64,000 bases of DNA from Hypomesus transpacificus (lineage: Eukaryota; Chordata; Actinopteri; Osmeriformes; Osmeridae). The notes under the pieces are model-generated. The model was not told the DNA's origin. It saw only the letters and a list, made by a program, of their open reading frames with translations, and ran no database searches. Position 1 is the first letter of the stretch. Every line of letters starts with the position of its first letter. A program made the translations under genes and the position numbers. Below, in pieces: positions 96 through 27,204 of the stretch. The stretch lies in assembly GCF_021917145.1 (NCBI RefSeq), contig NC_061081.1, forward strand, positions 8,704,100 to 8,768,099. Reading direction: 5' to 3'.

Positions 96-2641
96 CGTTG
101 CAGTGGGATTGTAAATGAGCTTCAGATAGGGCTGAAACAAAATATGAAGACAAATTCTTAGTAATTCAACCAGCAATATATCCTAAAATCATGAAACAAA
201 TCATGACAAAAATTAGAATGACTTACTTGAAGATTATAGGAAGGATTTCCAAACTATCACCAGAGAAAAAATATAAACACCATTAATTATCCTCAAAAGA
301 GAAATCTATTTCCCAGTTAGAGAAACTTATGATCATACCAATTGCCTCTGAGGTGCGTTGGGATCAACCTGTGAGACATATCAAAGACACATTATGGTTC
401 CAATATTGGTTTGATTCCTTATGCTTCATTACTGTTATGTTATCTTTCATTGCCACTGATGAAGCCATACAAAGGGTCTGTTTACTGTAAGAAGACTGAC
501 TCATACCATTGGTGGAGGTGGTCTTGTCGTGTCCTGATAGGAAAAGACAAGATATGTTAGAAAAGTAAAGGAAAGTGTCTTTGCTCCACCTTTAACGTGG
601 GTCCTTGCAACAGTCCCCAAGAGCCTCTATGATGCAGACATCTTTACTATATGCATCAAATGCTTACCAGTGGCAGCAGGAAAAGATTTTCCCCCTAAAA
701 AAAAAGGAATTATTTACACGTCCATGAACTGTTTGGTTTTGAGATGAACAGACTAGTCATAACCAGGAGGCAATTCATCACTAACCTCTTTCAGGGGAAG
801 GTCAGACACATTCTGTGAAAAAAAATGTTTGAGTTATTGATTAATTTAGCATACAGACAATTTACAGGAACAAACTCAAAGGAACTTAAAACGTTGCTCT
901 TACCTGGAAAATCACATTATCCGCCTGATGAAACAAGAAACAAAAATTTGACTGTCAATCATACCTGACATAATTAAGATATCACATTTCAGTAAGCTGT
1001 GTTTGATGTTGGAAAAATGACAAATGTTGTACTTTACCTTCAGGAAAGGGAAGAACTCCCTATTGCCCTGAACAAAGAAAAACATAATAAAGAGACTTAA
1101 ATCCACAGTCATTCCTCTTTAATGTTACAATGTACAGAACGTGACTGTGTGAGTGTCTGAGCAGCGTACCACAATCTCAGGCATCAGGGGCTTCCCTCCA
1201 ATAAGGATGTTGCCAGCTCCAGGGTATGGAAGCATCGGTCCAGGCTGCCCACAAACACAATCCACGTTTCATTTATTTGACGTCTTTTCTATCAGTCTAG
1301 TGTGTAGTCGAGGAGCATTGTTGCTGTGTATTACCCTTCTGTTTCGGTCCCGTGTGTCTGGCTGTCGTGCTCCTCCCCTGGGTCCTCCAGGCTTCCCAGG
1401 TCGGCCTCGCTGCCCACGCTGGGGCTCCTGGCCAGGGTAGGCCCTTGCGCCCTCAGGCTTGTACCCCAAACCAGGTCCCTGCATACATTATGTATTTTTG
1501 CATGTTAACTAAATGAAGTTTGTGTGTTAGGAAAGGTTGTTTGCGTTGCTGTACAACAGAGGTGGAAGGCTGGGTGGTGATGCGAGGTCTCCCATAGTTC
1601 CCTGCTCCCACCATGGAACCCAATCATCTTTCTACATCCCAAACAAGATTTAAAGATAGTATATCTATTCCATATGGCCATCTCTACTGTACAGTTATAG
1701 ATGTTAAAAGACTATCTAGACTACAATGACCTTAGGTTGGTCAGTGAGGAGTTGTCACCTACCAGTCTGTCCCCTCTTTCAGGGATTAAAGGGGGTCCTC
1801 CAGGCTGTGGGCTGCTGGGCGGCTGGGCGGCTCCATTCCCTGGTCCTGCTGTGGGCCTCTCTGGGAGCCAGGGGGGTATCTCTTTAGGCTACATGACATC
1901 AGGGACATCAGTTAGAATCGGCAATATGTTATTGCATATATTTTGTCATGGCCACAGAGAGGGAAATTCTTACCCATGTTGGATTGCCAGGTTTCCTCAC
2001 ATCCCACCATGGCCACAAAGGTCCTGCGCCCATTGGTTCTTGGCTTTCTTTCCCTCCACCCATTGGTTGACCCCAAAATTGTGGTAGAGCTCCTCCTCTG
2101 TCATTGGGCTGTACAGAACACTTGTTACAGTGACATTTATTTTAAATCAAGCATAATTGATGCGTGAATGGATGATAATAATTTCTGTCTAATGTTTTAA
2201 ATTCTTAATTTACGATCATCTAAAACTTACCCTCTTCGGGGGCATGTTAGTGTTTTCAGGAGGCCCACCTAAGGGGGATAATGGAGGGCTTCCTTGCTGC
2301 CACTGCCTCCATGGATCAGGCTGAGGAAGATTGATATAATCACAAATGTTTTACATCATCAAGCATCTAAATGAATCCAAAAATTATTTTCCAAACTAAT
2401 ATTTTACAGTTTGGGAATATGTAGAATGTGTACTCACTCGTGCAGCTACTGCTGAGAATAATAAAGCCACAACAAAAAGTTTGGCCATCATTCCAGATTA
2501 ACCTTTAAAACACACAATTAATATGTTTAAACACTCTAAATATATATATTTCTTCAAGAAATCAAGTGTCATTGTGCTACTTCTACCTGTGCCCTGACAA
2601 TGTCTCTGTACTCTCGGTTGTGTGTGGGCACTTTTATTTGA
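96..2641 (-). CDS. Gene A: P/G-rich SCPP with a train of micro-exons, 3' end outside window
   Basis: I read a minus-strand secreted P/Q/G-rich protein of the secretory calcium-binding phosphoprotein type. Coding exons, all phase 0 with GT-AG borders, in order: 2491-2438 (signal peptide MMAKLFVVALLFSAVAAR), 2320-2231, 2108-1974, 1888-1763, 1478-1335, 1244-1170, 1067-1038, 924-904, 812-786, 694-668, 533-507, 368-339, 253-227 and 131-96, then off the left edge. That is about 284 residues so far. The first six exons are rich in Pro, Gly, Trp and Gln; the 1478-1335 exon is basic and Gly/Arg/Pro-rich. The last eight encode only 7-12 residues each. A non-coding first exon lies near 2587-2612 behind a TATA-like box. 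A further small exon between 1479 and 1762 cannot be excluded. The SCPP class is inferred from signal exon, intron phase, composition and neighbours; the exact orthologue (SCPP5-like is one option) is not established. Confidence 0.72.
2631..2639 (-). promoter_or_regulatory. TATA-like box of gene A
   Basis: Minus strand reads AAATAAAAG about 20-30 bases before the inferred non-coding exon that ends with a GTAGAA donor at 2586-2581. It faces away from the gene B promoter about 600 bases off, so A and B are divergently transcribed. Confidence 0.5.
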
Positions 2642-3236: not shown

Positions 3237-3244
3237 TTTAAAAG
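3237..3244 (+). promoter_or_regulatory. TATA-like box of gene B
   Basis: TTTAAAAG lies about 80 bases upstream of the GTAATT donor at 3325 that closes the non-coding first exon of gene B. Confidence 0.5.
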
Positions 3245-3463
3245 AACCCACAAGATGGATCTCCATCCATTGTTTTCTCTCATTTCTAAACCTGAAAATC
3301 TGTCAAGATTTGTGAGATTTAAAGGTAATTTACCATATATGTACTTGCATTTGTATGTGTGTCTGTTTAGGATGTTCACAGTACTGATATAATATGGTCA
3401 ACCTAAGATGTGGAGTATGGTTTAACTGTTTCTGTGTTCTCTATAGGATTTCCCCCCAGTACA

Positions 3464-4030
3464 ATGATGAAGACTGCAGTCATTCTGTCATGTCTTCTGG
3501 GGCTGGCACTGACTCTGCCTGTGAGTTTGACAATGTCAAGAAGATTTTCTTTTACTTGTCAGTCTTTTGCATTTCGTGAGTTGACAGCGTTGTCTGTTTT
3601 TCCAGGCGGAGGTGAAGCACCAACGAATGGCTCGCTCTGACTCTGACTCTGATTCTCACTCTAACTCCAACTCTGATGAGGTTTGCTTGCCTTAATTAGG
3701 CACTATAGTTATGCTCAAGTGAACCCAACTCCTAATTATCAGAATTAAACTCTCTTTTTATTTATACAGGCTAGTTTCAATTTGCCGCCTCAGCTAACGA
3801 AAGAGCAGTTGCTTCAACTGATCCTTAGCTTCCTCACACCACCTGCCCCACCTGCCCCAGCCTCAACTCCTGCTCCAGCCCCAGCCTCAACTCCTGCCCC
3901 AGCCTCAACTCCTGCCCCAGCCCCAGCCTCAACTCCTGCCCCAGCCTCAACTCCTGCCCCAGCCTCAGCCTCAACTCCTGCCCCAGCCTCAACACCTGCC
4001 CTGTGGGTCAATAAGGAAGTGTTTGGTTGA
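3464..4030 (+). CDS. Gene B: small SCPP with Ser/Asp exon and Ala/Pro/Ser/Thr repeats
   Basis: Three phase-0 coding exons: 3464-3520 (signal peptide MMKTAVILSCLLGLALTLP), 3606-3680 (25 residues, an alternating Ser-Asp/Ser-Asn run ending SNSNSDE), and 3770-4030 (NLPPQLTKEQLLQLILSFL, then about 50 residues of APAPASTP-type repeats, ending WVNKEVFG before TGA). Total 130 residues. The non-coding first exon ends at 3324. Ser-x-Glu at the exon-3 border is the Golgi kinase (Fam20C) phosphorylation motif typical of SCPPs, so the product is probably secreted, phosphorylated and calcium-binding. An AATAAA signal lies at 4117-4122. It shares its plan with genes C, D and E, so I read it as a tandem paralogue. 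I cannot assign a named orthologue. Confidence 0.82.
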
Positions 4031-4116
4031 TTTGATTGTCTCAGTCCATGATCCTGATATGAATATGAATTGTGTATCATCATATTGAATTCATTGCAAA
4101 GTCAATTTGGGAACAG

Positions 4117-4122
4117 AATAAA
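4117..4122 (+). terminator. Polyadenylation signal of gene B
   Basis: AATAAA about 87 bases after the gene B stop codon. Confidence 0.6.
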
Positions 4123-4564
4123 TTAAAATGCAGTAAATTCTAAATATTGAGTATTACTCAGTTTTCTCACTGAAAAGACTGATGCCATTTAAGAAAATCT
4201 TATGAGAAAGGAGAACAAATTCATGGAACAACTTAAAGCTAAAACTGTAAGCATGGAATGTTGTGCTTGAATACAGTCTGCTTAGTAGCCCATGTAAGAA
4301 CACAAGTCTTTTCAAAATGCAAGATGTATGTATGAATCACTGACCCTTTCAAAATGGCTTGACTAGATCTACAGGTTTCTTAACATCTGATGAAACACAA
4401 GGCTTTGTGGGAGGACTGTAGATTTACAGGTTTTGGGAATAAACCATTCAAAACTCAATGTCATCACATAATTTTTTTTTTTACCTTGTTTTGGGGGGGG
4501 GGGGGGACAAATGACCATAACAGCTTTGAGAGCTGATTGGTTGATTGTGTATGGCAGCGGTCTT

Positions 4565-4570
4565 TATAAA
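4565..4570 (+). promoter_or_regulatory. TATA box of gene C
   Basis: TATAAA about 85 bases upstream of the GTATGT donor at 4654 that ends the non-coding first exon. Confidence 0.6.
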
Positions 4571-4757
4571 GCCCACACTGGAGCTTCAGAAGTCACTACC
4601 ACATTTTGCTTGCTCCGATACAATTACACATTTTTGCATCTACTCTTCAACAGGTATGTATATTATACATGAGGCGACATCAAGGGTACCAGTGTCAGTT
4701 TAGTGTCATTGTCAGGCTGTAATTTCTTTATTTTCTTTAAAAGGATTCAAGAGAGTC

Positions 4758-5052
4758 ATGAAACTGTTGTTCCTGGTTGTGTGCTCCATTGGACTGTGTT
4801 CCTCCCTTCCGGTAAGCTCTGTGTTAAAACAGTTTATACGACAGACACAGGTTGTGTGATATGTGATATGCTTGCCCTGTTTAAATAATTGTATTTGTAT
4901 AATTGTTGAATTGCTTCTTTTTTAAGGTATCCAAGGAGGTCCATGATAGAGAGGAACGCTCTTCAAGTGATGAGGTTATTGTTGATCAAGAATCCTCATC
5001 ATTAATGTTACATGCACATACGATACAAGTCATATAAGCCTGCGCTTTACTA

Positions 5053-5139
<87 letters not shown>

Positions 5140-5401
5140 CTTTCTCCCTCTTTCTCTGTATGTGTTTCAGATGTATCGAGGTTTTAGAGGGTTCAATCCC
5201 TACCAGTTCCAGCCTCAGTTCCCATTCTACCCATACGCCCAGCCTCAGCCAACTCAGAACAACAACAATGCCCTCCTGACTCTCCTACCCTTCCTGCTGG
5301 CTAGTCTGGCCACTCCTGCAGCGGCCCCAGCTGCTGCCCCAGCTGCTGCCCCAGCCGCTGCCCCTGCTCCTGCTCCTGCTCCCGCTCCTGCTGGGAAGTA
5401 A
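4758..5401 (+). CDS. Gene C: small SCPP with aromatic/Pro/Gln core and Ala/Pro tail
   Basis: Coding exons, all phase 0: 4758-4811 (signal peptide MKLLFLVVCSIGLCSSLP), 4927-4974 (VSKEVHDREERSSSDE, a Ser-x-Glu phospho-motif at the exon end) and 5171-5401 (76 residues). The last exon starts MYRGFRGFNPYQFQPQF, passes through a YAQPQPTQNNNN segment and a hydrophobic LLTLLPFLLASLA stretch, and ends in AAAP then AP repeats before TAA. Total 110 residues. The non-coding exon 1 ends at 4653 and a polyadenylation signal is at 5487-5492. The same layout as B, D and E supports tandem duplication. It is probably secreted to a mineralising or epithelial matrix; that role is inferred from the SCPP family. 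A very long CT microsatellite sits in the intron just before the last exon. Confidence 0.85.
5055..5135. repeat. (CT)n microsatellite in the last intron of gene C
   Basis: About 80 bases of pure CT dinucleotides end some 35 bases before the gene C acceptor at 5170. The run forms an extreme polypyrimidine stretch and is likely length-polymorphic. Confidence 0.97.
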
Positions 5402-5486
5402 GATGGACTTCACCAGAAGACTGTGCAGCAAAGTCGTTGACTTTTGAAAATCCCGGTTGTAAATTAATACTCTTGAATTAGTCTTC

Positions 5487-5492
5487 AATAAA
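5487..5492 (+). terminator. Polyadenylation signal of gene C
   Basis: AATAAA 86 bases after the TAA stop of gene C. Confidence 0.65.
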
Positions 5493-5509
5493 TCAAACAA
5501 CGAAAACAA

Positions 5510-6930
5510 AATACTTTCTGGAGTTGTTTTGTTTTGCTGTGTTGTCAGTGCTTCTGAGAGTTATAGTCCCTGGCATTGCTTCAGATTTGTTTATCAGGTG
5601 TGTTCTGTTAAGCTGACCAGGTTAGCCTGTTTTCATTGACTACAATAGGTCAAAGTAGAACAAAGTTTCAAAAGTAAGGCTCTGCACAGAGGCCGAGGAC
5701 ATCATTGGCTATGGGCTTCCCATCCAATTGGACACCTACCACCTGCAATGCCAGAGAGAAAACCCACAAAATCACTGCAGCCAGTCCACAAACCGTTCCA
5801 ATTAACGTATGACAGATGGTTCCTAAGCATCAGTGCTCGTACAAACACAGACAGCTTCTACCTTCAGACAATTAGGCTACTCTGCACTTGCCATTTAGAC
5901 ATGACATCCATAATGTGAATTATGTTTGCACCACCAACTGCATTACTAAATGTAGCTTCATCTCAACCATTTATGTGTCTACATAACACTGCCACTCTGT
6001 ATTTGATTAATAAAATACTTCAACTTTTCATTGCTAGCTGTGTAGAAGTCTATATTGCTAATGGTTAAATTATTGTTTTCAGAACAACACTTGGTACAGG
6101 CACAGGAACAGGAAGTTGGGTCAATGTTAAATGATTTATCTGTGCTGGGCCTGTTGGTACCGCATTCATTGTGAAACTACTGTGGGTGTTTATGTGTGTG
6201 TTAGTTGTCAAAATTTACAAAATTGTAGGAACAAAATTGTAGGTACGTGAATATAGGTGGTGGGTATCACTAGTCTCTTACTTAGTTTGTGTGAATTGAA
6301 ACCGTTAGTTGGAGCCGTGAGTGTGAATCCACAAGGTGAACTGACGACTTTAGCAGAATGTTAACTGGTAAATGCAGTGTAGTCATGTGCAAGCCTGGCT
6401 AGTTACTCACTTCTGCCCGAACACACAAAGAGAAACCAGTTTTCTACATCCCAGCCTCTGTCAAAATATAAGCGTATTTAAAAGCCTGATGAAAACTTGA
6501 GGAAGTGATTCATGCTGAGATTCCAACAATAAGAGCAGAGACGGTAGGATCTGCCTAAATATGGTCATGCACATCCCTAGTCCTCAATAGCTCACACTAC
6601 CCCACCTCAGCAATCATAACATCTCTTAATGCTAATCTGTATAGATAGTATTTATAACATGTTTAAGGTAAATAATGAGGAAAGTCTTAGATGGGTGACC
6701 TGTCACATTGTGAAGAAATGATATCTAGTACACATATCCAAAACACTGTACCGTTCATGAAGACAAAACCCATATATGGCCCATGTTGTGGGATTATGGT
6801 ATCCAAGATTAATGAGCATGCCTGTTTGGCAATGCCAATCTAGCATGCCCAACCCAGACAACAAACAGTACGACACCCTTGCTTACAACACATTCGGTAA
6901 GCTTAATTAACGAGAGCAGTGATTGGCTGA
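5510..6930. other. Intergenic region between genes C and D
   Basis: About 1.4 kb of AT-rich sequence with no convincing exon, RNA gene or recognisable transposon. An AATAAA-like string near 6010 has no associated ORF. Confidence 0.5.
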
Positions 6931-6937
6931 AAGGTTG

Positions 6938-6945
6938 TATATATT
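6938..6945 (+). promoter_or_regulatory. TATA-like box of gene D
   Basis: A TATATAT-type string stands about 95 bases before the GTAAAA donor at 7037 that closes the non-coding first exon. Confidence 0.5.
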
Positions 6946-7156
6946 GTGCTGGGTGTTCTTTCCATCAGCTCATACACAAGAGACAACAAGAAGACTATTA
7001 TTCAAGATACTCACAGAGACCCTGAGACACACCAAGGTAAAACAGAAGAGTGTTTAGGTTCAGGATTTCTGTTCCTGGTCATATTAAACACTTACATATG
7101 ACTGTGGATTAAAGATGCTGATTATGATTGTTCATTTTTCTTATTTTGTGTTTTAG

Positions 7157-7767
7157 ATGCAGACATTTCGAATGAAGCTCGCAGTTCTTCTTGGATGCTT
7201 GATGCTTCTCTCTTCAGCATTGGTAGAAGTCAGACAGTTGGCTGAGGCAAACGTACACATGTAATTGGGATTTGTACTTCTCTACAAATGACTAAAGCGT
7301 GTCTATTTTAGGCTGAACCTGACCATGTCATCGAGAAGCGTTCTTCATCTTCATCTTCAAGCAATGAAGTGAGTCTAACTCTAGTCTGAGTGCATAAAAA
7401 CCAAGAACATCTGAATATCTTTATCAGAGTATCTTTATCAATATATGGTGCCATAGCATGAATCTCCAAAATTGTTGAAAGTGTTCATCTGAGATCACAG
7501 AAAACTGTAGCTGCATGTTGCTGACAGCATTTTCTTCTTGCCTTTTTTCCTTAACAGGACAGGAATGGCAACCCGAATTTCTTGCAGTTCTACAACTTCC
7601 TCTTGCTCCTCCAGAGACTTGGTCTGGCTCCTGCCCCTGCCCCTGCCCCTGCCCCTGCCCCTGCCCCTGCCCCTGCCCCTGCCCCTGCCCCTGCCCCTGC
7701 CCCTGCCCCAGCCCCTGCCCCAGCCCCTGCCCCTGCCCCAGCTCCTGCCCCAGCTCCAGGACGCTAG
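7157..7767 (+). CDS. Gene D: small SCPP with poly-Ser exon and (AP)n tail
   Basis: Phase-0 coding exons: 7157-7222 (MQTFR then MKLAVLLGCLMLLSSAL), 7312-7368 (AEPDHVIEKR followed by seven Ser and NE) and 7558-7767 (DRNGNPNFLQFYNFLLLLQR, LGL, then about 20 Ala-Pro dipeptides, ending GR before TAG). Total 110 residues from the first ATG. The internal ATG at 7172 would give a more usual signal peptide, so the true start is uncertain. The poly-Ser exon ends in the SSNE phospho-motif. Most of the last exon is an almost pure CCTGCC hexanucleotide run read in frame as Ala-Pro, so its length probably varies between alleles. AATAAA lies at 7864-7869. It is a paralogue of B, C and E by layout; no orthologue name is assigned. 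Confidence 0.85.
7628..7755. repeat. Coding hexanucleotide repeat (CCTGCC)n
   Basis: About 20 tandem copies of a six-base unit with a few CCAGCC/CAGCTC interruptions towards the 3' end. In the frame of gene D each unit encodes one Ala-Pro pair. Confidence 0.95.
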
Positions 7768-7863
7768 AGCATCAATCACAGACAGGAGCCAACAATGTCT
7801 TTTCTGACTGTAAATCTATGCAATAACCTGTCTGCTGGGATGATGTTGGTTTACACAATATGC

Positions 7864-7869
7864 AATAAA
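7864..7869 (+). terminator. Polyadenylation signal of gene D
   Basis: AATAAA about 97 bases after the TAG stop of gene D. Confidence 0.6.
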
Positions 7870-7879
7870 GACAATTGGA

Positions 7880-8800
7880 AATAGCACATATGGCTTCATG
7901 ACGTCATTGTTTGATAGGACCTTCTTGGTGTGATGCATGCTGTGTGTGGGTAACAACAAGTAAAGAAAGTAGTGTGTGTGTGGTAGTGTGTGTTTATGTG
8001 TGTGGCAAGTAGTGTACGTGTCAGTAAGAGAAACAGAACACCATGTGAAAAGAATCAACTGTCGAGATTCACTATATGTGATGCCTTCAGTAAGTCAATA
8101 ATCAGTAAAGTGATCCGAGTGGGGTAGAACCCACATCACCCCTCCTACAGTAGTAACAGCTGTTTGTTTACAGGACGTGTTAACAACGTTGGTTGCTGGT
8201 GGACACCCAAAGCGGTGTGGAAAATGATCCATTTCAACATGTCTTTAAGTCCTTCTGATGAGAACATGGGTGTAGTTGGTGCAGTAACAAACACAACACA
8301 GTTGTTTTGAAAGTTGTTCTCCTCGAAGCCCATTCTGAAGCAAGCAGGTGGCAAACCTAGAATAAGCTAGGTTACTTGGACTAAATGCATTGATCTTTAA
8401 CTGCATATTTCTCTGAAATATTCAAAACATTTCCACATTCTTTTTGCAAGACCTTTGAGAAAAAGGCTGAATAATGAGCTGGCTATTTTTGCCACAGGTA
8501 AGGGTAAATCTAATAAGTTATAAATATTTGTATTTGATATGTTAAGGTGTATCTTATATGCACGCTTAATTCTTGTCATTCAGTGTGTACATGTAACTGA
8601 AAGATGTTTTTTTGAGGATGTGTGTGTTTGTGTGTCAGTGTGTGTGTGTGCCTGCATGCGTGCTTGTGCGTACATGTGTTTGTGTGGGAATGTGTGTGAA
8701 TGAGTCTGTGCTTCTTTGTCTTTCTGTCTCAACATTTCAAACGTCTTTAACAATGAGTCATATTAGTGAGGAAATACTTGTTTTTTAATCCTAATTGGTT
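7880..8800. other. Intergenic region between genes D and E
   Basis: Contains GT-rich stretches (about 7970-8010 and 8615-8700) and no supported exon until the presumed non-coding first exon of gene E ending at 8938. Confidence 0.5.
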
Positions 8801-9056
8801 TATTAATTATTCAAGAGTTGGCTTGAGACATCTGAGAAAAAGAGAGTTGGAAGTTTAGATGTGAACACAGATGAGGAACTACCTGTTTAATCATACATGG
8901 AATTACCCTGAAGAACCTGCCAGATTCAAGTCCTCATGGTAAGTGAGCTCCCATTTATGAACTGTCCTTTTTATTAATCAACTATTAACAGAAAAAACTT
9001 GTTAGATTTTTGTGTATTAATAACATCTTTTTTTTTAAATCTTTTTTCAGTTCATC

Positions 9057-9622
9057 ATGAACTTTGTTTATCTGTTCATTCTCATCTTTGGAATTTTTCC
9101 TGAAGCTGTAAGTGTAACATAATAACATTATTCATAAAGTATATAAATCAATAGTTAGTGAAAGCTTTACTTGAATACAAATTAAGGAGGCTGATGCATG
9201 TAAAATGTTAAACCAAATGACTTTAGTATAAATGTATCAATACTTTTTTGCAGAACTGTGGTCGTCACTATCATAGAAGCTACTCTGACAGCGATGAGGT
9301 AAGAAAACGTATTTAAAATATAACTTTACTGGTCTATCATCTATTTGCAATACTAATGTCAACATATTTTAAACATATCTGTCTTGTGTTGTAGAGACGT
9401 AACATCTACCCAATCCCAACATTTCGCTGGTATCGCCCGATACGCCCGATGCATCCCCGCTTCCCCTTCCCTCTGTGGCCTCTATATCCTCGGCTGCTGC
9501 CCCGACCGGCCCCAGCCCCGGCCCCAGCCCCGGCCCCAGCCCCGGCCCCGGCCCCAAGCCCAAGCCCAGGACCTGCTACCCCACCCCCTGGTACCACCGC
9601 CAAACGAGGAGACAATGGCTAG
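9057..9622 (+). CDS. Gene E: small SCPP with Arg/Pro core and (AP)n stretch
   Basis: Phase-0 coding exons: 9057-9107 (signal peptide MNFVYLFILIFGIFPEA), 9254-9298 (NCGRHYHRSYSDSDE, ending in the Ser-x-Glu motif) and 9395-9622 (75 residues: RRNIYPIPTFRWYRPIRP, a Pro/Leu/Trp-rich stretch, about 12 residues of Ala-Pro repeats, then a PSPSPGP and TPPPGTTAKRGDNG tail before TAG). Total 107 residues. A donor at 8939 probably ends the non-coding first exon. Compared with B-D it is basic and aromatic and carries one Cys. It is the fourth member of the tandem array. Secretion and phosphorylation follow from the signal exon and acidic exon; matrix function is inferred from the family. Confidence 0.82.
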
Positions 9623-9699: not shown

Positions 9700-10775
9700 T
9701 TATCCTCTGTTAACAATGAACCAGGGCAGCAAAGCTCTTTTCAACATGTCCATTTATTTCCACATTAAATAGATCCATCTGCATTTTGACTGGCTTTTTA
9801 TATGATTTGTGCTCTATTTCTGTTTTGTCAGAACATAAATTCCTTTTTTAATTGGATTAAGAATTGTGTTGCTTATTTTAATATTATTTCCGATTGTGTT
9901 TAGTCTTTATCTTATTTACACAATGTTGTTCTGGTCATGTTGAACAATTAGAATCTAAGATTTGAATTGAGAAGGTGGCATGAAGGCGTGTCCCAGGATG
10001 AGTCATGATCTTGATGTTTGCATGTGTGTCTCATTGTGTTTGTGTATGGGTTATTTTTTTCAATGTGTGTGGGAGAGTGCTGAAAACAGCCAATGGCACA
10101 GATCTAAATTATAGGATTAGCTCAGATTATGACATACCTAGGTGTTGCTGGTGTAATACTAGGCCTGTGAGGAAAGCACCCCAGTCACCAAGGCCAGTAA
10201 AGTGTCTAAGCCTGCACTCCAACCACACCACTCCTTATTGATGGATGGAGATACAAGCTGGGTCACTTGAAAACTGTATATTAGTTGGGACTACAAATCC
10301 TAACATCCTAGAACACCCAAATCCTAGATTACAAATCCCAGAAGCACATTGGCTCATGTCTGCATTTATAGATGCTGGACTTCTAATGTTAGTTATGATT
10401 TGGCAAGATTATTACCTCACCATGACACAAGATTCTTCTACTGATTTTATTGGTCTAAGTGTAATATATTCTTTTAACGCCATTGTGGTTGAGTCTAATT
10501 ACGGATGACGCATGGACCTCAGACTATGATGTAAAGAAAAATTATTGTCAGTGGCTTTTGTATGTTTGCTTGTGTGCCTTTTCAGACATTACAGCACTAA
10601 AACTAAATGAAAACCTCTCAATTACATCAAACCAGTGCTTGGTCTGTGGCCATTAGCTCATAGACCACTTCAGGTACTTCAAGAAAGGAAATTATGTTGG
10701 TCTGACGTGATTGGTTGGTTCGTTCCATGGACAGTGCATAAGTTGCAGATCTCTGGTGAATTCTCTCACTTTTTC
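9700..10775. other. Intergenic region between genes E and F
   Basis: No exon is supported. Two ACTACAAATCC-like strings occur at 10289-10350 (see findings). The rest is AT-rich unique-looking sequence. Confidence 0.45.
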
Positions 10776-10838: not shown

Positions 10839-13343
10839 ATGATTAGACTGGCAATACTGGCATATCTTGCCACAACTGTAACTGCTGTACCAGTAAGTAT
10901 CTTCTGTTTGTATTTTAGACAGACATGTTATCTCACAACATATATCTTGGAAAAGGACAGTTCATCTTGTTTTTTGTCCATTGTTTAAACTTTGTTTACT
11001 CAGTTCAGTGTGGAGCTCTAACCCCATGTTCTTTCCATGCACATGTTCAACTGGCCCAGGTCACTGGAGGCCCAGCTCTTTCACAGCCTAAACAAAGAGG
11101 AGACCTACCGGCCCAAAAAGACCCATCTGTGCAAGCCTCTGCCACAAAGCCTGGGCCTCAAGTAGTGGTTCAGATCCATCCCAGTGTGCAGCAACCCCAG
11201 CCTATTCTACCTCAGCAACAAGATGCCCAGGGTGGGGGTCAGTTCCTGTTTCCCTTTCAGCCCCATGCTTGGGGACCACAACTGATGATGCCTTTCCACC
11301 CCAACACTCAGAGTCCTGCTCAGCCTGGACCTCAGCCTCAGCAACCTCAGGTGAGACACACTGGCTTGACTTAGTCATTCATGAAAAATATGATATTGTG
11401 TTTGATTTAAAAAAAGTATTGTTTGAGCGTTATAGAAATCGCATTGTGTTTACTTATTCTTTTACAGTATGTTTTCCCCTATGGATACTTCCCTGCGTTT
11501 TCACCACAGCAAGGGAATCAGCTGGTAAGATGAAGCTGTATGTGTGGTCTGATTGTATACGTGTTACTGTAAAGGTACAGTTTCGTGATTAGTGCAATAA
11601 TCTGTGAAATATCTGTTGGTTTTCATCCAAAACCAAACATAATTAAGTTGAAACGTTTTGCCCTGAAGCAGTCTTTGTTCATCTGCCACATCTACTGTAG
11701 GGAATTTTTTTTTAGAAGTTCTGCTGTCAAATAATTTATCATATTTATCAAACAGAAACTGCCTGTATCTGTCCTTCAGTCTTCTCCCAGGCTTTTGATT
11801 TGTTGGGTAAACCTCTGACATCAAAACAAACCCTTTGACTCGATCAGATATAGCTTGAGTTATGACTCCAGGAGGCTGCAATATTCAAAGAAAATTGTTG
11901 ATTTATAACCGGGAAAAGAGATTTATTGAAAATATATTGTATACTGTAATAGATTTTTTCCCTGACGGTTCATCAAGTTCATTTCAGCAGAATGGTCTCT
12001 AAACCATCTTTTGTCTAGAACAGCTACACAAATATAATTTTACATTTATAATTCTGTTATTGTAGATTTCACTTACAAGTGCAGGAAATAGTTTATATAA
12101 AATATAATTTATTATAAATTAGTCATGAAAAGTAATAGAAATTATAAATAATTTAAAAATTTATATATTATATTATAAATAGTAATGTAAATTAAGAAAC
12201 ATGAATGGAAATACAGTTTAAATGTAATGTGACTTGTTTGCTTGTCTTCAGTTCTCCCCCTATGGAATGCCAGTGTTTTTCCAGCCACCCGTGTACCCAA
12301 ACTTCCCTGCGCCAACCGGCCCAGTAGAAACAGTCTTGCCTCCCTCCCAACCTGAAGCACCAGCCCAGAACCCCTTGCCCGAGGAGCAGCCACAGCAGGT
12401 ACCAGAGCAGGCCTGACCCTGCAGCTGTGTTTGGTTCCTCCTGTTTGTTCAAGAAGCAGGTCATGCTTTTAGCTAGTATCTGTAAGATGAGGTGTTGAAG
12501 GGTATATTTTCTGTACCCACAGACTCCTCAATTTGTCTGGATTCCACAACCAAGGGTAAAACAATAATATAATATTATTGATATTATTTGATCAATATTA
12601 TGATACTGTACATTCTATGTTTGCAGTTCATTTTGTTTGAATGATGCCACTCAGTGGAATGACTCATTCTTGTGTTCACCTCCTAGGACCCTCTGTTTGG
12701 GGGACTGAGCTCTGAGGAACTTGAGGTGAGGCAACCAAGATGTTAATCAAGCCTTGTTAGTAATTACAAAAGAGGAACTCACTGAACTCAATGCACTCAT
12801 TGACACCCATCTGTGTAAAAGCCAACTGAACACACCCATTTTTTCTTTCCCTTGGGTTCTTTTCTCCCTCTCTTTCACCCTCTATTTCTTTCAAAGATGG
12901 TAGACAGAATGGGACAGATAGGTTTATTTATGCCCAATGTACAAGGGACAAGCGTGGCCAAAACTCAGGCCCGGCAGGTGGCCCCAGCCAGTCTGCCTAC
13001 AGGCACCATGGCCATTAACCCAGGTCTGCGAAGCTTTGGTTTACCCTCTCCTGCCTTCATACCCACCATGGAAGTCTCACATGGGGGCCTCCCCACCGGA
13101 CAGGCCACCTATCCTGAGATAACCATTGGAGAGGTTCCCCTGCCGGACCCTCAGGCTCTACCAGTTGGTCAAGAAGCGGCCATCTTCCCAGCAGTGGTCG
13201 AGCCCAACTATCAATCAGTCGAGCCCACCGCCACATATTCAGGCATTTCTCCACCGCGGATTGAATCCAAAGTATACCTCCTCCCTGAGACCACGCCCAC
13301 AGCAGGGTTTGCCGTGGAGACCAACACAGACCTCTATCCTTGA
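10839..13343 (+). CDS. Gene F: large P/Q-rich SCPP with SSEE motif
   Basis: Seven phase-0 coding exons: 10839-10892 (signal peptide MIRLAILAYLATTVTAVP), 11060-11350 (97 residues, Gln/Pro-rich, with QFLFPFQPHAWGPQLMMPF), 11468-11524 (YVFPYGYFPAFSPQQGNQL), 12252-12398 (49 residues beginning FSPYGMPVFFQPP), 12523-12555 (TPQFVWIPQPR), 12687-12725 (DPLFGGLSSEELE) and 12897-13343 (148 residues to TGA). Total about 355 residues. The SSEE motif resembles those in ameloblastin and amelotin, and the many Pro/Gln/aromatic residues fit the P/Q-rich SCPP subfamily of enamel, enameloid and junctional-epithelium proteins. The signal exon appears to be exon 1, unlike most neighbours, which have a separate non-coding exon 1. 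A named orthologue is not assigned; an ameloblastin-like (scpp6-type) identity is only a possibility. Confidence 0.82.
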
Positions 13344-17414: not shown

Positions 17415-19563
17415 ATGAAGCTGCTCATACTGTGTATCTGCCTGACCAGCTCCATATCGGCTGTCCCGGTAAGTCTGACAAGATCAATAATGCTACTAGT
17501 ATCATCATAAATGAGTATATACTAACAATAATAATAAAGCCTCTCAACTCATCAAGTTATACCGTGTTATCAACTTCATATGTTCTGTTACATCAACAAT
17601 GTCTTTCATATTTGGGGCCAGATATCCTTCAACACAGCCATACGCTGGGGTATCACGGCCGACCTACCTATCAGTCATCACGGAGATGAATGAACACAAA
17701 TAAAATCTTGCTTGTTTGACTGTAAACCTTGTGCCTTTTCAGCTTCCCTCTTTCTTTCACTTCCTGCCTCACTTTGGGCCCAGACAGGCTGGCCCACCCA
17801 CGCAGGTACGGCAACAGGTACACCTGCTGGAGGTTGCCTAATTCTGTGTTCACATTCGACAGCAGATTCACTCGTTTTAAATCGTCCGTGTCAACATGAA
17901 TCTTTATCCTGTGGTGTTTTCCGTCTTATTTCAAAAGTTGAAATGTAGTAACATCCTTTCTCTCACTCTGCAGGGGAAGGAGGTCTATCCAGCAGGCCAG
18001 CCCTTGCAGCCAGACATGAATGGGGCCATCAGCATGGAAATTGTACGCTGTCATCTCTCCTACACTGTATTTTATATAGATGATGCACATAGAGTATAAG
18101 CTCTACTCCATGGGCCCTGCCTCTTCTGTTGATTCAACTTCGACTAGATAAAGTTGACTGGCAATCATTCCTCAGAAATGAGAGGTTTGCAGATATGAAT
18201 AGCTGTAGGATACCCCTCATCCAATAACATAAAAGTTAATTGGGCTATGTAATGATTAGTTACACTGAACCATCAAACTAAATTGGTATGCAAACCTGGT
18301 CATTGAATTAAGCTCTCTCCAAACAGGTGTTTCCACCCAGATTCCCTGGCCAATCTACAGGTGGACAAATGAATGGACAGGTGTGTAGCCGTTAACTGTT
18401 GGTTCTATTCTTTTATTTTATTAAAGATTTTGATGTTCTGTATTTCTCTGTCTGCCATCCTTTCCTCTCAGGCCTTTCTCAAGTACTCAGTACCTAAGGC
18501 ACCGGGTCGAAAAAGTGTGGAAATTGTAAGTATTTCTTGTTCTCAATGCAGAATTATATGGTGTAAGATGGAGTGAACCTCTTCAATTACAGGGGAAGTT
18601 AAAACCACAGGCACCGATGAAGATGTGTTCAGTCACAGCGGACAGCTTGTGTGATGTTAAGTGGGTTGCTGTGAGGCTGGGTGTCTGTGTGTGAACATTA
18701 AACAACCACTGTGATGTCTTACTGCGGCACTGATCATGATGTGATGCATGATGTGGAAAGAAGTTTCACATTATAATTATAATTTTTTCTTTTAATTTTT
18801 CAGTACTACCCCTTTGACTTCACACAACAGCAGGTGAGTGTTTGAATTCAATACATATTTATAACCTAATTTCAATATCTTTAAATCTTAATATCTAAAT
18901 ATGAGCTCCTTATCTTCTTCAGATGCCTAACATCCCACAGCTGTTCCCTTATGATAACTCTCCCCAAACCGTGCCCCAGCAAGATCCCATAGTAAGTCTT
19001 ATCCGTTTTTGCAATAATCCTATTTGTAAATGACAATACAACTTACAGTACTCTAACATACCACCCAGTCTTGTCAGAAATGAAACAAAAATATTTGACA
19101 TAGATAACTAAACTGGGGAGTTTTATCAGATCAGAAATTTTCCAAGGAACAGAGAAAGGAAGCTAACGTTTTTTAGGGGAATCAAAGTGTCCTCAGACCC
19201 ATGTGTACTCTGCTGTTTGCAGGTGCCGCCCTTTGAGGCCAGACTTCCTCATACCCAAGATCCTTTGCAGCCAGCCCAGCAGGAACAGCCACAACGGAGA
19301 GGCCAGGTGGGATCCAATGTACTTGTAGTACCTGTGGTTAATGTTATGTCCATATGTCCTGTATGTATCCATCCACAAAGGAAAAAGACTCGACGTTCAT
19401 GCATGCTGTACTGTTAGAGAACTCACTCAGCAATAATGAACATATTCTTCAACACGGTCAAACGAATAGCTGTAGAACATCTCTCATCCAAGGTCACATG
19501 ACAAATGTTGCTCAATTTAACAATAACATTTTCAACACTATACAGGTGCCTGTGCATCCGTAG
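17415..19563 (+). CDS. Gene H: P/Q-rich SCPP, family of G and I (odam-like candidate)
   Basis: Nine phase-0 coding exons: 17415-17468 (signal peptide MKLLILCICLTSSISAVP), 17743-17805 (LPSFFHFLPHFGPRQAGP...), 17974-18042 (ending ISMEI), 18327-18380 (VFPPRFPGQSTGGQMNGQ), 18472-18525 (AFLKYSVPKAPGRKSVEI), 18804-18833 (YYPFDFTQQQ), 18923-18991 (MPNIPQLFPYDNSPQ...), 19223-19306 (28 residues, Gln/Pro-rich) and 19546-19563 (VPVHP, TAG). Total about 164 residues. A second donor at 17818 would add VRQQ. Two Ser-x-Glu sites sit at exon ends. It shares the F(L/I)K...P..PGR-S-x-E plus Y-P-F-D layout with G and I but has a longer Pro/Gln tail instead of an acidic end. Order and composition make an ODAM-like identity plausible, not shown. 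A 3' non-coding exon may begin near 19686. Confidence 0.82.
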
Positions 19564-20467: not shown

Positions 20468-21775
20468 CTAGTCATCCTGGTCCTCGTCTTCTCCTGCAGG
20501 GGCCGGGGCCTGTAACAACACGTCCACAGTGACAACTAGCTCTCACTCGGTCTCTCTTCAAAGAGAGACAGATAGACAGCAGGCGCCATCTTTCTACCCC
20601 ATTTATGTGTGTGTGTGTGTCTGTGTGTCCCAGCCCCAGTAAAAGTCCTCCCTTCAGTCAAAATTCAAAGCCAACCAATCCATCCATTTGGTTCAAAACT
20701 CCCATTCCATACCAGCCAAAACAATACTATCAAACATTTATAGATTTCTAATTTACACAATGGGTCTTTCATCTTTCCTACAGGGTTTGCAGGTTAGGCA
20801 CATCGATACTCAGTTATCCTTATCCACATGCAGAGTCTGTAATTGTCAGTGAACTTACACGAGCTTCTGGAGCCCCAGGGGCCATGGGGACTACAGCCTG
20901 TCTGCCACCAAATGGAAAGATCTGTTGGAGGGAACGGAGAAAAGATTTGTTGAGTAAAACCCACATCAACAACCATCCCCATTTAGAAAATAGTAAATTA
21001 CAAATCACTCTGTATATTATTTTCTTTCTGTACCAGATCAGGGGCCTCTCTTACCAGCTCGTAGCTAGCTCTTCCAGGTAGATGAGGCACTTCCTGTCTG
21101 ATGAAGCCTTGGGATGGGAAGCCCTGTCAAACAAGAGGAACAAACAAAAAGGAAACCCAATACAATCACTTAAATTCTCTTCAAATTTGAACTTTAACTA
21201 TTTTTATCAACAACACACTTACAATGTTAGGCTGCTGCGGGCCTCCGAAAGGAAGGAGCTGAAATGGAGGATGAAAGAAAGATAGATGTGAGGTTGTGTA
21301 GAATATCATCTGATTTATAATAATGTCATGTGATACTCACAAACTCCAACTCGTACTCTGCTGCATTCCCAGCTACTGCTTGCTGAATGTGAAATGAACG
21401 TCAACATCACTGTGTTAATGTGATGAACTGAAGAGCAGGCTTGAATATTACCTTTGTTTTTGTTTTGCTTTTCTCTTTTGCAGTTTCAACTGTAAGGTCT
21501 AAATCTTAGCATTAGATGAAGGAACTTAATTTTACATAAATATTGTGTGTAGCTTAGTTCCAGTGTAACTTACTTGAGTCTGTGGTACCACATAGCGCTC
21601 AAATCCTCTGTAATGCCTGGCCTAGGACAAGAGGTAGGCACACCAAATGTTATTATCCATACACTCCATTGGACTTTACAAACGTTCTACTTTGGAATAA
21701 TCTACTTGTATTTACAGGGACACTGAGTGCTATGCCAGCAATGCATCCCAGAAGAACTGCGATGAAAGACTTCAT
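20468..21775 (-). CDS. Gene I: SCPP with GFIRQEVP module and acidic C-terminus
   Basis: Minus-strand phase-0 coding exons: 21775-21716 (signal peptide MKSFIAVLLGCIAGIALSVP), 21621-21574 (ARHYRGFERYVVPQTQ), 21382-21341 (QAVAGNAAEYELEF), 21258-21223 (LLPFGGPQQPNI), 21123-21055 (GFPSQ, then GFIRQEVPHLPGRASYEL), 20921-20859 (IFPFGGRQAVVPM, then Ala/Pro-rich) and 20509-20468 (APAPAGEDEDQDD, TAG). Total 119 residues, nearly the same length and exon plan as gene G, so I is its closest paralogue but inverted. The non-coding first exon ends at 21959 with a TATA-like box at 22012-22018. A non-coding 3' exon is likely between about 20060 and 20310. Predicted to be a secreted, phosphorylated matrix protein; the role is inferred from the family. 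Confidence 0.83.
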
Positions 21776-23648: not shown

Positions 23649-25437
23649 ATGATGAAACCAGTGGTGTTCCTGATGTTCCTGTTGGGCTCAACTTTTGCTG
23701 CACCTGTAAGTATTGTGGCAACCCTTTTAGAAGTTTAACTGTATACATTGTATTTCTCTATATATTCAGGTCAAAGTAAGACCACCTCTTTCCAATTCCA
23801 CACAATGTCCTAAATGTTACTCAGCTGTTACGTGTGCTGACTCAAACCAATTCCCTGTTTTACCAGGCTCCTGAAAGCGGAAGCAATGAGGTAAAAATAA
23901 AGCTTTCCTGTGCAGACATCTCTCCCGCTCACCTCCCAGCACGATGTGCCAAACTATCTCAGCCATGATATTCTCATGTCAAAAAATGACTCAATAGCCT
24001 TAATAACATGTCTGCTGTCCCACCTGCCGGGTTTTTCCAGCAGGTTTCAGCACATGCCAACATGGCTCTGAGGATGATGGAGCTCTACAGAATGTACGGT
24101 TCCCTTCAGCAACAGGTTAGACGTCCTCCATGTTGGTTTTCTTCCGTTTAAGAACTTGAACAGTTAAGACACTTGACTTGTGTGGAGTGTGTGAGTGTTC
24201 AGGGGGTTCATTAAATGGACAGGGATAACACAATATGGATCTTGTTGAAAGATGCAACACAGATGAAGTGTTCCTAATATGTGTTGATGTTTCCTGTAGG
24301 GTGTTGGAGCAGCAGGAAACCCTGCCTTCCCTGCTGTTCCCGTGAGAAACGTCTTACTTCCTTTCACAAAAGAAACATAGAACAAAAGACCACATTACAC
24401 ACTTTTGCCACAGAACTTTAAAAACTGACACCTTTTCATTTTGTATTTTTTTGGTAAGACTACCATTACATTTCTTGGAAGATTACCATTACTCAAAGCA
24501 ATTCCATACTCTAAAGCAAACTCAGTACAATGTGTCCATGAATCCAAAATCTTCCTTGTTCATTCATGAAAGTAAAGTAGCATTGGCAGGGGCCGACCTT
24601 CTGGAGCACATGCAGCATAATGTGTCCTTACAGTGTGAACAGTGTTGGAGGTTGAAAGGGGGGCTTGATCACGGTGTCTCTCCTGCAGGGGAACGCAGCT
24701 GCAGCTCCGCCGCCCAGCTTCTTCATGCCGCCTCCCATGTCAGCCGGGTCCGACGAGGAGGGAGCGGTGCGTGCGCTCTTCTCAAAGGGTTACATTCCAC
24801 TCGATGAGATGAATTAGGACCGTTGATGACATTTCTAAAGCGGCACATCAGGATGGTTCTCATCCTGCTTTTAGGGAGGAAGGAACGTGTGTCCGTATGA
24901 ATGTGTGCACGTGCGTGCTGAATGTGTGTGTGGGGGGGCGCTCACACAACTCTTCTTCTCATGCCTTCCGTGTCTGTTCTCCAGCCCCAGTATGCCTATG
25001 GGTATGGCTTGCCAGCGGGCGCAGCCCCAGCTGCCCCCCTGAACTCTGACGAGGTGGGAGAGGATGCCGTTGGCGCAGAGGCAGAGGCTGCTGAAGCCGA
25101 GGCAGAGCCCGCCGCGGCGGAGGGTGGAGCCGAGGCAGAGCCCGCTGCGGCGGAGGGTGCAGTGGAGGCCGAGCCCGCCGCAGAAGCCGTCGCCCCGGAG
25201 GCCGCAGCTCCCATGGACGTGGTGCCCGCTCTCCCTGAGGTCTCCATGGACATTGCCGTTGCCGTCCCTGCCGGCGCTGACGTCGGCGCCGCCGTGGATG
25301 CCGCCACCGCTGATGCTGTCGACTTTGCCACCGCGGCCGCAGCCTCCTTCGATCCAGCCCTCGTTCCACAGGGGTCACCAGTTGCCGTGGATATCGACAC
25401 CACTGTGCTGGTGGGGGACACCCCTGCATTGGTGTAA
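23649..25437 (+). CDS. Gene J: acidic Ala/Glu-rich SCPP, possible enam/fa93e10-like
   Basis: Phase-0 coding exons: 23649-23705 (signal peptide MMKPVVFLMFLLGSTFAAP), 23867-23890 (APESGSNE), 24041-24115 (QVSAHANMALRMMELYRM, then YGSLQQQ), 24300-24341 (GVGAAGNPAFPAVP), 24689-24766 (ending PPPMSAGSDEEGA) and 24985-25437 (150 residues, TAA). Total 242 residues. The last exon begins PQYAYGYGLPAGAAPAAP, has a Ser-Asp-Glu site, then imperfect repeats of EAEPAAAEG type, then an Ala/Val/Asp-rich end. Three Ser-x-Glu sites fit SCPP phosphorylation. The S-(N/D)-E-E-G-x-P-x-x-(F/Y)-x-Y-(F/G)-Y layout resembles a part of enamelin, and zebrafish fa93e10 has been discussed as enamelin-related; I offer this only as a lead. 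The last exon is much more GC-rich than its surroundings. AATAAA follows at 25676. Confidence 0.83.
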
Positions 25438-25675
25438 TTTCCACAGCCACAGTTTCCAACCTGGGTGTGCTTCCCTGACGACGTCATGACGACAATCAAA
25501 AACTTCAGTGAAAAAAAGTGTTTGGAGGAAGGAGATGTTTGTGTGTCCTGGCTACTTGTGCTGGGAAGGAAAATACATTAGTTTTGAAATTGGTCTGTGG
25601 GAAAGAATGAGCCTGGACTGTCTTTGTCAAACACCACTGATTCAGTCTTTACCTTGTGTTCTTTTTTTCATTCTT

Positions 25676-25685
25676 AATAAAATAA
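25676..25685 (+). terminator. Polyadenylation signals of gene J
   Basis: Two overlapping AATAAA strings about 240 bases after the gene J stop. Confidence 0.6.
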
Positions 25686-25689
25686 ATCT

Positions 25690-26875
25690 TGCTGAGATAC
25701 TGCATCTGATCTGGGGTTTTATTAACTCTCATCTGACACCTCCTAAACATCAAATCTGGTTCTCAGGTTTGAAACCTGTGGCTTTACAACCCCTCCATGT
25801 CTTTCAACAAGGAAGCCATAGAGTGCACTGTCTATGCATTCGTAGTTGCCTCTAACCACAGATTTAGATTCAGATCTTATTCAATTCCATTACTGATGGT
25901 AGTACACATTATGGTGATGTAATCTGATCTCCAACAAGTGGGTAAAGGCTGAACAACTTGTCTGGCTAGTTTTAATAGGATCAGAGGGATATGAGAGGTT
26001 GCTGACAAGGCAGAGGGGGGGGGGGGGGGCAGTGGAGCAAAGCCGGCCCTTACAGGGGATTAATGTGCATGTGTTCTACTCCTGCTGAAGAACTGTAGGT
26101 GAGCTAGCACACAGACGAGGTGATGCTGCAGACACCCCTGGCTCAGAGAGACTTTTCTATCCTGTTCTCTCCTCATTTTGGAGGTCTTGATAATGACTCG
26201 AGTACACACTTCCTAGAGCATACTCTCATTTCATAACTTGATGTTGGATAAGAGGGTGAATTAAATTCAAGAGGTTGAGTAAGATGTTGATGTTAAAGGA
26301 AAGTACCACTTTGACCAAGATATGACATGAATACTGGAATAACATAATAAGCATGGGAACAGGGTTCAATAGGTCTTTGAGAAAGTAATAAGTAATATAA
26401 AATATGATTAATTCCTAAGAAACATATATGAAAATATCACTTTGAAAGTAAAAGTATCACTCTAATCAAATTGTGACAACACAACGCTGGAAAAAATAAT
26501 AATGAGCATGGGAACAGGTTTTAATATTTCTGCAATAAGATTTGCTCTGGAATGTAATTCATTCCCAGGGAAGATAAATTATATATTCTGGATGTAAGAC
26601 CTGTTCAGTATATCCACAGTTAATCATTTAAAAGGAGTCAAATGATTTGCTCCCACTAGCAGTGTGTAAGGGCTCTCTGTAGTACCAAAGGAGGGTGTAG
26701 GAGGATATGAGCACTCTGTAATCTACTTATGTTGGTCAGGGTCAGACGTGTCTCTACGACACTACTATTACACAATGCTTGGACGAAAGCACATATTTTA
26801 TTGTGATATAATGATTAAATTGAGGTTGTGAATGTTTTTGGGATTGTGTTTAGAGTTGGTACACAAAGGTCATTT
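25690..26875. other. Spacer between the SCPP cluster and cnga1
   Basis: No exon recognised. Holds a poly-G tract near 26017-26031 and two diverged copies of an about 75-base segment at 26301 and 26452. Confidence 0.5.
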
Positions 26876-26880
26876 TCTAA

Positions 26881-26927
26881 GATTGCCTAGCTGAAGGACT
26901 ATGGACCGTAAAATACGTTAAATAAAG
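26881..26927 (+). other. cnga1: Possible non-coding first exon of cnga1
   Basis: A GTGAGC donor at 26928 follows an exon-like stretch upstream of the first coding exon. The acceptor would be near 27160 (TGAACAG) or 27202. No promoter is evident. Confidence 0.3.
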
Positions 26928-27204
26928 GTGAGCATTCTACATCATTAGTTTAGTTAAGAAAAGTAGTTTCTGTGCAATTATGTTATGTGCATCAACAATG
27001 ACTTCTGTATTTGTTCATTTTCATTTGGGAAGCTTGGTGAGTGGTTATTCCTTGATAGTAATTGGCTTGATTATTCTGTAGAGTACATTATAATAATATT
27101 GCAGTGTTTGGAAGTAGTTTCCAAATGCCTGAGATACTGCTGGGTTTGTTTGAACAGAACTTGTTACTTTTATATTTGGAAGGCTGGATCGTAAATCTGC
27201 AGTC

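Follow-up and report, generated by a model that had tools for sequence, protein, structure and literature searches.

A tandem array of four Ala/Pro-tailed SCPP-type genes in Hypomesus transpacificus, a candidate scpp3 cluster

Four three-exon genes lie in tandem

We analysed a 64,000-nucleotide stretch of Hypomesus transpacificus DNA (assembly GCF_021917145.1, contig NC_061081.1, positions 8,704,100 to 8,768,099 of the forward strand), referred to here as the window, in which four small genes, designated B, C, D and E, span positions 3464-9622 of the + strand. Each gene has three coding exons separated by phase-0 introns. The lengths of all 12 exons are divisible by 3, starts and stops are present, and the frames are open throughout, giving products of 130 (B), 110 (C), 110 (D) and 107 (E) amino acids. 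In every gene the signal peptide stands alone on exon 2, exon 3 ends in S-x-E directly at the GT of its donor, and the last exon carries an in-frame Ala/Pro-rich stretch. The array sits among further SCPP-type genes, A on one side and F to J on the other, and the window begins inside this cluster; it is this position, together with the phase-0 introns, the isolated signal peptide and the S-x-E ending, that places B-E in the SCPP family. An initial annotation of this DNA had proposed a four-gene tandem array of SCPP-type genes sharing the same three coding exons, an exon 3 that closes on S-x-E at a phase-0 donor, and an Ala-Pro-rich end to the last exon, and each of these claims is borne out by the gene models and by the scan of the window described below.

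A poly(A)-type signal follows all four genes, AATAAA in B, C and D and ATTAAA in E. TATA-like boxes lie upstream of B, C and D, and none was seen before E. Candidate donors of a non-coding exon 1 (B, C and D) or of the 5′ untranslated region (E) can be proposed from sequence only. Several splice sites score poorly: the exon 2 donor of D (-3.0), the exon 3 donors of B and C (-0.8 and -0.4) and the exon 3 acceptor of D (-1.2). The features of the array, all on the + strand, are as follows.

3237..3244, +, TATA-like box of B, TTTAAAAG; candidate non-coding exon 1 ends at 3324, before GTAATT
3464..3520, +, B exon 2 (gene model), signal peptide MMKTAVILSCLLGLALTLP
3606..3680, +, B exon 3, AEVKHQRMAR then SDSDSDSHSNSNSDE; R-M-A-R abuts 7 Ser in alternating register; weak donor GTTTGC
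3770..4030, +, B exon 4, Leu-rich patch, Ala/Pro/Ser/Thr tail at 3836-4000, C-terminus -VFG
4117..4122, +, B poly(A) signal AATAAA
4563..4571, +, TATA-like box of C; candidate non-coding exon 1 ends at 4653, before GTATGT
4758..4811, +, C exon 2 (gene model), signal peptide
4927..4974, +, C exon 3, VSKEVHDREER then SSSDE; R-E-E-R precedes the Ser run; weak donor GTTATT
5171..5401, +, C exon 4, Tyr/Phe/Pro/Gln segment, Leu-rich patch, Ala/Pro tail at 5309-5392, C-terminus -AGK
5487..5492, +, C poly(A) signal AATAAA
6937..6944, +, TATA-like box of D; candidate non-coding exon 1 ends at 7036, before GTAAAA
7157..7222, +, D exon 2, signal peptide; weak donor GTAGAA
7312..7368, +, D exon 3, AEPDHVIEKR then SSSSSSSNE; K-R site precedes the Ser run
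7558..7767, +, D exon 4, Leu-rich patch, Ala-Pro tail at 7627-7758 (period 6, 20.3 copies), C-terminus -PGR
7864..7869, +, D poly(A) signal AATAAA
9057..9107, +, E exon 2 (gene model), signal peptide
9254..9298, +, E exon 3, NCGRHYHRSYSDSDE; Ser run not preceded by a convertase-type site
9395..9622, +, E exon 4, Arg/Pro/aromatic-rich basic segment, Ala-Pro tail at 9506-9568, C-terminus -KRGDNG (contains RGD)
9764..9769, +, E poly(A)-like signal ATTAAA

A CT microsatellite of 52 copies (5055-5157) occupies the intron before C exon 4, near the acceptor.

The shared layout is rare in shuffled sequence

To gauge how often such a layout arises by chance, both strands of the window were scanned for a signal-peptide-like exon, a short exon ending in S-x-E at a phase-0 GT and a last exon of at least 55 codons, with introns of about 60-250 nucleotides and dinucleotide shuffles as the null. 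A stricter first version returned 0 matches in the real sequence and 0 in 100 shuffles and was uninformative, because several of the splice sites are weak. With the splice thresholds loosened to admit these genes, the scan gave four matches on the + strand, exactly B, C, D and E, none on the - strand and none in 200 shuffles; since the thresholds were fitted with B-E in view, this result speaks to the rarity of the layout and is not an independent discovery. The weak splice sites are what could be cited for B-E being chance exons or pseudogenes; set against the 12 open exons, the starts and stops, the poly(A)-type signals and the empty shuffles, we consider that explanation very improbable. 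On this evidence B-E are four functional-looking SCPP genes.

Tails of similar composition are built from different repeats

We scanned all six frames of the window for 16-residue stretches with at least 80% Ala+Pro and found them at five places: the tails of B, C, D and E, and exon 6 of the neighbouring gene G, where the match overruns the exon by two codons. All five lie on the + strand and in the predicted coding frame of an SCPP gene, which supports the gene models, and the stretch in G means that B-E are not alone in their Ala/Pro content. After the signal exon, Ala+Pro make up 39-53% of the residues in B-E and Gln 0-7%, the measure by which we compared them with the Pro/Gln-rich (P/Q-rich) SCPP subclass. 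B-E resemble the P/Q-rich amelogenin, enamelin and ameloblastin genes in their phase-0 exons, their signal-peptide exon and the S-x-E end of exon 3, but have three coding exons only and Ala/Pro in place of Pro/Gln.

The initial annotation held that the tails were assembled from different codons and units. The repeat periods do differ (18, 24 and 42 bp in B; 24, 12 and 6 in C; 6 in D; 6 and 12 in E), whereas the codons overlap, GCC and CCA being common to all four. The repeat unit is A-A-A-P in C and A-P or A-S-T-P in the others. One explanation is that the tails are neutral products of slippage under a locus-wide Ala/Pro bias, so that importance is limited to exon 3 and the pre-tail patch. The period-6 array of D (93% matches) and the period-42 array of B (97% matches) look young, in line with such slippage, and G also carries an Ala/Pro stretch. 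The confinement of all five stretches to the coding strand and frame argues the other way, as do the differing units, which suggest that a composition has been kept instead of one repeat. Weighing these, we regard neutral slippage as rather unlikely. Antifreeze-type repeats were also considered and rejected, the tail units not being of the Ala-Ala-Thr type. Among the literature matches listed, nothing relevant to Ala/Pro tails of SCPPs was found.

The four genes share a weak common signal

With the tails removed, we compared exon 3 plus the head of exon 4 by local alignment against shuffled controls. The six pairs within B-E gave p-values of 0.101, 0.038, 0.003, 0.024, 0.007 and 0.053, so that four fall below 0.05. 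None of the 12 control pairs with G, H and I did so (range 0.22-0.99). When whole mature sequences are aligned, all six pairs reach p 0.005, a result owed mostly to the tails. The unique segments ahead of the tails had been described as unlike each other, which is not entirely so, given the four pairs below 0.05.

Several results weigh against the array as a distinct family. Among the 12 control pairs with A, F and J, three reach p < 0.05 (C-F 0.046, D-J 0.040 and E-F 0.009), so that the full contrast is four of six pairs within B-E against three of the 24 formed between B-E and the six neighbours A and F-J. The whole mature C-I and E-F pairs also reach p 0.005, tails included. Signal-peptide similarity is not specific, the nearest to that of B being I. 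Global alignment exon by exon put none of 12 pairs (six of exon 3, six of exon 4 heads) clearly below 0.05, the lowest being 0.050. When the gene neighbourhoods were compared as DNA, the only matches among B-E at E < 1e-3 were in the tails. The comparison beyond B-E gave one 20-base match between D and I (E 0.006); since the clear protein pair G-I is likewise weak at the DNA level (best E 0.04), we dropped this comparison as evidence either way. The common signal of B-E is real but weak, and it is not exclusive to them. Judging from these alignments, B-E look like old duplicates and not a recent burst, and they are probably one old sub-family.

Place and copy number suggest a probable scpp3 array

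We propose that B-E are the scpp3 tandem array of a teleost SCPP cluster, to which we assign a probability of about 0.52, orthology being judged by place and copy number. The proposal follows from the position of the array among SCPP-type genes that are followed by cnga1 and tacr3, and from the reported copy number of scpp3 and its linkage to odam. B-E themselves provide the tandem order and the four copies, and F-J were named only by position, by eye and, for F, by a motif. In published accounts, scpp3 copy number varies considerably, from 2 in parrotfish to 8 in gilthead bream, a variation whose cause is said to remain undetermined (PMC10932694), and catfish carry several scpp3b copies, of which Ancistrus has two on one scaffold with odam (PMC9596584). 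According to a 2026 survey, every toothed teleost in its sample has scpp3, and many SCPP genes had escaped earlier searches by similarity (PMC13367325). In ray-finned fishes scpp3 is described as multi-copy, variable in number and part of a sparcl1-linked SCPP cluster (scpp3a/b/c in fugu; scpp3a and the scpp3b copies in catfish), a description that the B-E array resembles. In catfish scpp3 lies with odam, and B-E adjoin F, a candidate odam; the likeness is one of description, not of sequence. The literature drawn on also includes PMC10568847, PMC8423624 and PMC8841829.

Some observations count against this assignment. The comparison with scpp3 is one of place and number only. Pfam named none of the genes A-J, giving nothing at E <= 10 for B, C and E, four weak, unrelated matches (E >= 0.21) for D, and weak, unrelated matches only for G. 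In catfish, scpp1 lies with sparcl1 on a different scaffold from scpp3b and odam (PMC9596584), which makes the neighbour J, a candidate scpp1, a less than close fit beside the array. Reported expression is also mixed: scpp3 is expressed in dental and oral epithelium (PMC13367325, PMC10932694), whereas a medaka study reports no scpp3 expression, giving the inner dental epithelium as the site of fugu scpp3a/b. In medaka, the relatives of these two fugu genes carry a non-coding RNA annotation, which indicates how easily such small genes are missed.

The initial annotation instead saw a lineage-specific radiation of SCPPs without named orthologues. The uninformative Pfam search would suit such an origin, as would the weak likeness of the pre-tail sequences, to which some neighbours align about equally well. 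SCPP genes are described as lacking conserved modules and changing fast (PMC13367325), and earlier work regarded SCPP3A-C as duplicates that might be particular to pufferfish (PMC4895719); another paper reported them absent from an icefish (PMC7327861). The match of copy number, tandem order and cluster place to reported scpp3, and the presence of scpp3 in every toothed teleost of the 2026 survey, speak against it. We therefore think a radiation without named orthologues unlikely, and the earlier claim probably wrong, while individual copies among B-E may still be specific to their lineage. We conclude that the observed array is real and that it is probably a known gene array, scpp3, with divergent tails and a shared processing signature. 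The identification would matter, as scpp5, scpp3 and odam have been proposed as the three genes essential for teleost tooth formation (PMC13367325).

A convertase-type site and a C-terminal Gly recur in the array

The signature consists of two motifs that the initial annotation did not have. A convertase-type basic site abuts the Ser run in three of the four genes, as R-M-A-R in B, R-E-E-R in C and E-K-R in D, with the spacing H-x4-R-S common to all three; by permutation, the chance of at least three genes in four having such a site there is 3.6e-4. All four products end in a Gly-type signal, G in B and E, G-K in C and G-R in D, whereas none of the five products of F-J does (Fisher 0.0079; the end of A lies outside the window). 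A C-terminal G, G-K or G-R is a signal for C-terminal amidation. With the terminal S-x-E held fixed, the Ser residues fall in S-x-S-x-E register in B (7/7, p 0.0002) and E (3/3, p 0.015); within the run alone, register is non-random in B (p 0.001) and not in E (0.17). FAM20C targets S-X-E/pS (PMC8348777).

The case for a signature common to all four genes is reduced by E, which has no convertase-type site before its Ser run and is net basic before phosphorylation (+8), and by the register in C (3/4, p 0.28) and D (4/7, p 0.21), which is at chance. In addition, the convertase, C-terminal and Ser-register features were spotted after looking, so that their p-values are optimistic. In E, R-R stands right after S-D-S-D-E.

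These motifs also suit a different reading, that B-E are peptide precursors, cut by convertases and amidated at the C-terminus to yield defence or signalling peptides at the oral or gill surface, E being of a proline-rich antimicrobial type. Besides the basic sites and the Gly ends, induction of an scpp3 gene in infected tissue would fit: fugu scpp3b rises in the gill after Vibrio harveyi, 14.54-fold by RNA sequencing and 3.91-fold by reverse transcription quantitative PCR. Against it, the likeness to such peptides is compositional, and among the literature matches listed none linked SCPPs to amidation or convertases by title or start of abstract. Arg, Pro and aromatic residues abound in the head of E exon 4 (9395-9505), which in composition is like proline-rich antimicrobial peptides, and the segment has no match among PDB chains at E <= 10. 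In its fullest form the idea would make B-E an SCPP sub-family turned into convertase-trimmed, stepwise Fam20C-phosphorylated and amidated Ala/Pro peptides that coat or defend teeth, mouth and gills, with E a proline/arginine-rich antimicrobial, and the C-terminal signal would persist as repeat units and middle parts change; we consider both forms of the idea quite improbable.

The tripeptide RGD occurs in three of the 10 SCPP-type proteins of the window (A, E and F); that of E lies near the C-terminus, in KRGDNG, with a chance of 0.016 by shuffling.

Proposed processing and role

Returning to B-E as an scpp3 array, we hypothesize that the proteins are secreted, the part after the signal-peptide exon being about 90-110 residues long. 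Removal of the signal peptide would be followed, in B, C and D, by convertase cleavage at R-x-x-R or K-R, exposing the Ser run as a new N-terminus. A Fam20C-type kinase could then phosphorylate the run backwards from its terminal S-x-E, as the register in B would allow for all seven Ser, before secretion from dental, oral, pharyngeal or gill epithelium. We speculate that the phosphorylated end would hold Ca2+, apatite or the mucus layer, and that a hydrated brush on the outside would be made by the Leu- or aromatic-rich patch together with the Ala/Pro tail, taken to be stiff, uncharged and disordered, in the way that statherin and acidic proline-rich proteins coat teeth. B-E would thus likely serve as phosphorylated, disordered, statherin-like coats of the tooth or of the mouth and gill epithelium. 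The initial suggestion of mineral- or mucosa-related phosphoproteins gains a plausible setting from the dental and oral expression reported for scpp3 and from the fugu gill response, the latter supporting a mucosal as well as a dental site.

AlphaFold models of B and C, made without an alignment, are of low confidence (predicted local distance difference test, pLDDT, 57 and 59) and show helices in the signal peptide and in the Leu-rich patch (B 55-66, C 65-81) but no structure elsewhere; on these models both proteins are apparently disordered. The helix moment of the Leu-rich patch was not significant (p 0.47, 0.14 and 0.34). Statherin, a human salivary SCPP, has a short phospho-Ser N-terminus followed by a Tyr/Pro/Gln segment, and C resembles it in layout and modestly in sequence. 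In a comparison of 10 proteins with a hand-entered human sequence, C scored highest, at 58, with p 0.007 and 0.001 under the two shuffle nulls used. This likeness is not specific, as four of the 10 (C, E, F and J) pass p < 0.05 in both nulls, which neither B (0.27, 0.69) nor D (0.04, 0.55) does. We take the resemblance of C to statherin as a lead and not as a family test. Statherin differs from B-E in having no Ala/Pro tail, and it is a mammalian gene not known to be orthologous to them.

The array offers four copies that carry a phosphorylation-type exon, a likely cleavage site (three of four) and a C-terminal Gly signal and that diverge in their tails and middles, so that the parts that matter could be tested directly. 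The same motif signals suggest a link between tooth-matrix and mucosal-defence roles.

Neighbouring genes

The SCPP-type neighbours were recognised by exon plan, the exons of I and J being set by eye.

96..2491, -, A, Pro-rich multi-exon SCPP-type gene; 14/14 modelled exons have lengths divisible by 3; continues beyond the edge of the window
10839..13343, +, F, P/Q-rich, 7 coding exons, 355 amino acids
14676..16099, +, G, 7 coding exons, 120 amino acids, one modelled donor GC; in a family with H and I
17415..19563, +, H, relative of G and I with roughly 9 coding exons, exon 8 having its end placed by eye
20468..21775, -, I, related to G (z 18.1)
23649..25437, +, J, Glu-rich SCPP-type gene, scpp1-like by eye

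F is a candidate odam by position and a motif only, and Pfam did not confirm it. Alignment of the cores of G, H and I against shuffled controls identifies them as one family (z 16.9, 11.9 and 6.6); by position they are candidate scpp9-type genes, and J is a candidate scpp1 by order, composition and eye. Published accounts put sparcl1 with scpp1; no sparcl1-like open frame was noticed by eye at 25438-28752, between J and cnga1, where no dedicated sparcl1 search was made. After J comes cnga1, seen as one exon whose best PDB match is the cGMP-gated channel alpha-1 (E 1.5e-119), followed by the first exon of tacr3, the neuromedin-K receptor (E 4.9e-60).

In G, H and I, G-R-x-S precedes a PF motif, and the C-termini of G and I are acidic. 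Further along the window, a 26-bp minisatellite at 45444-45672 comprises 8.8 copies with 99% matches.

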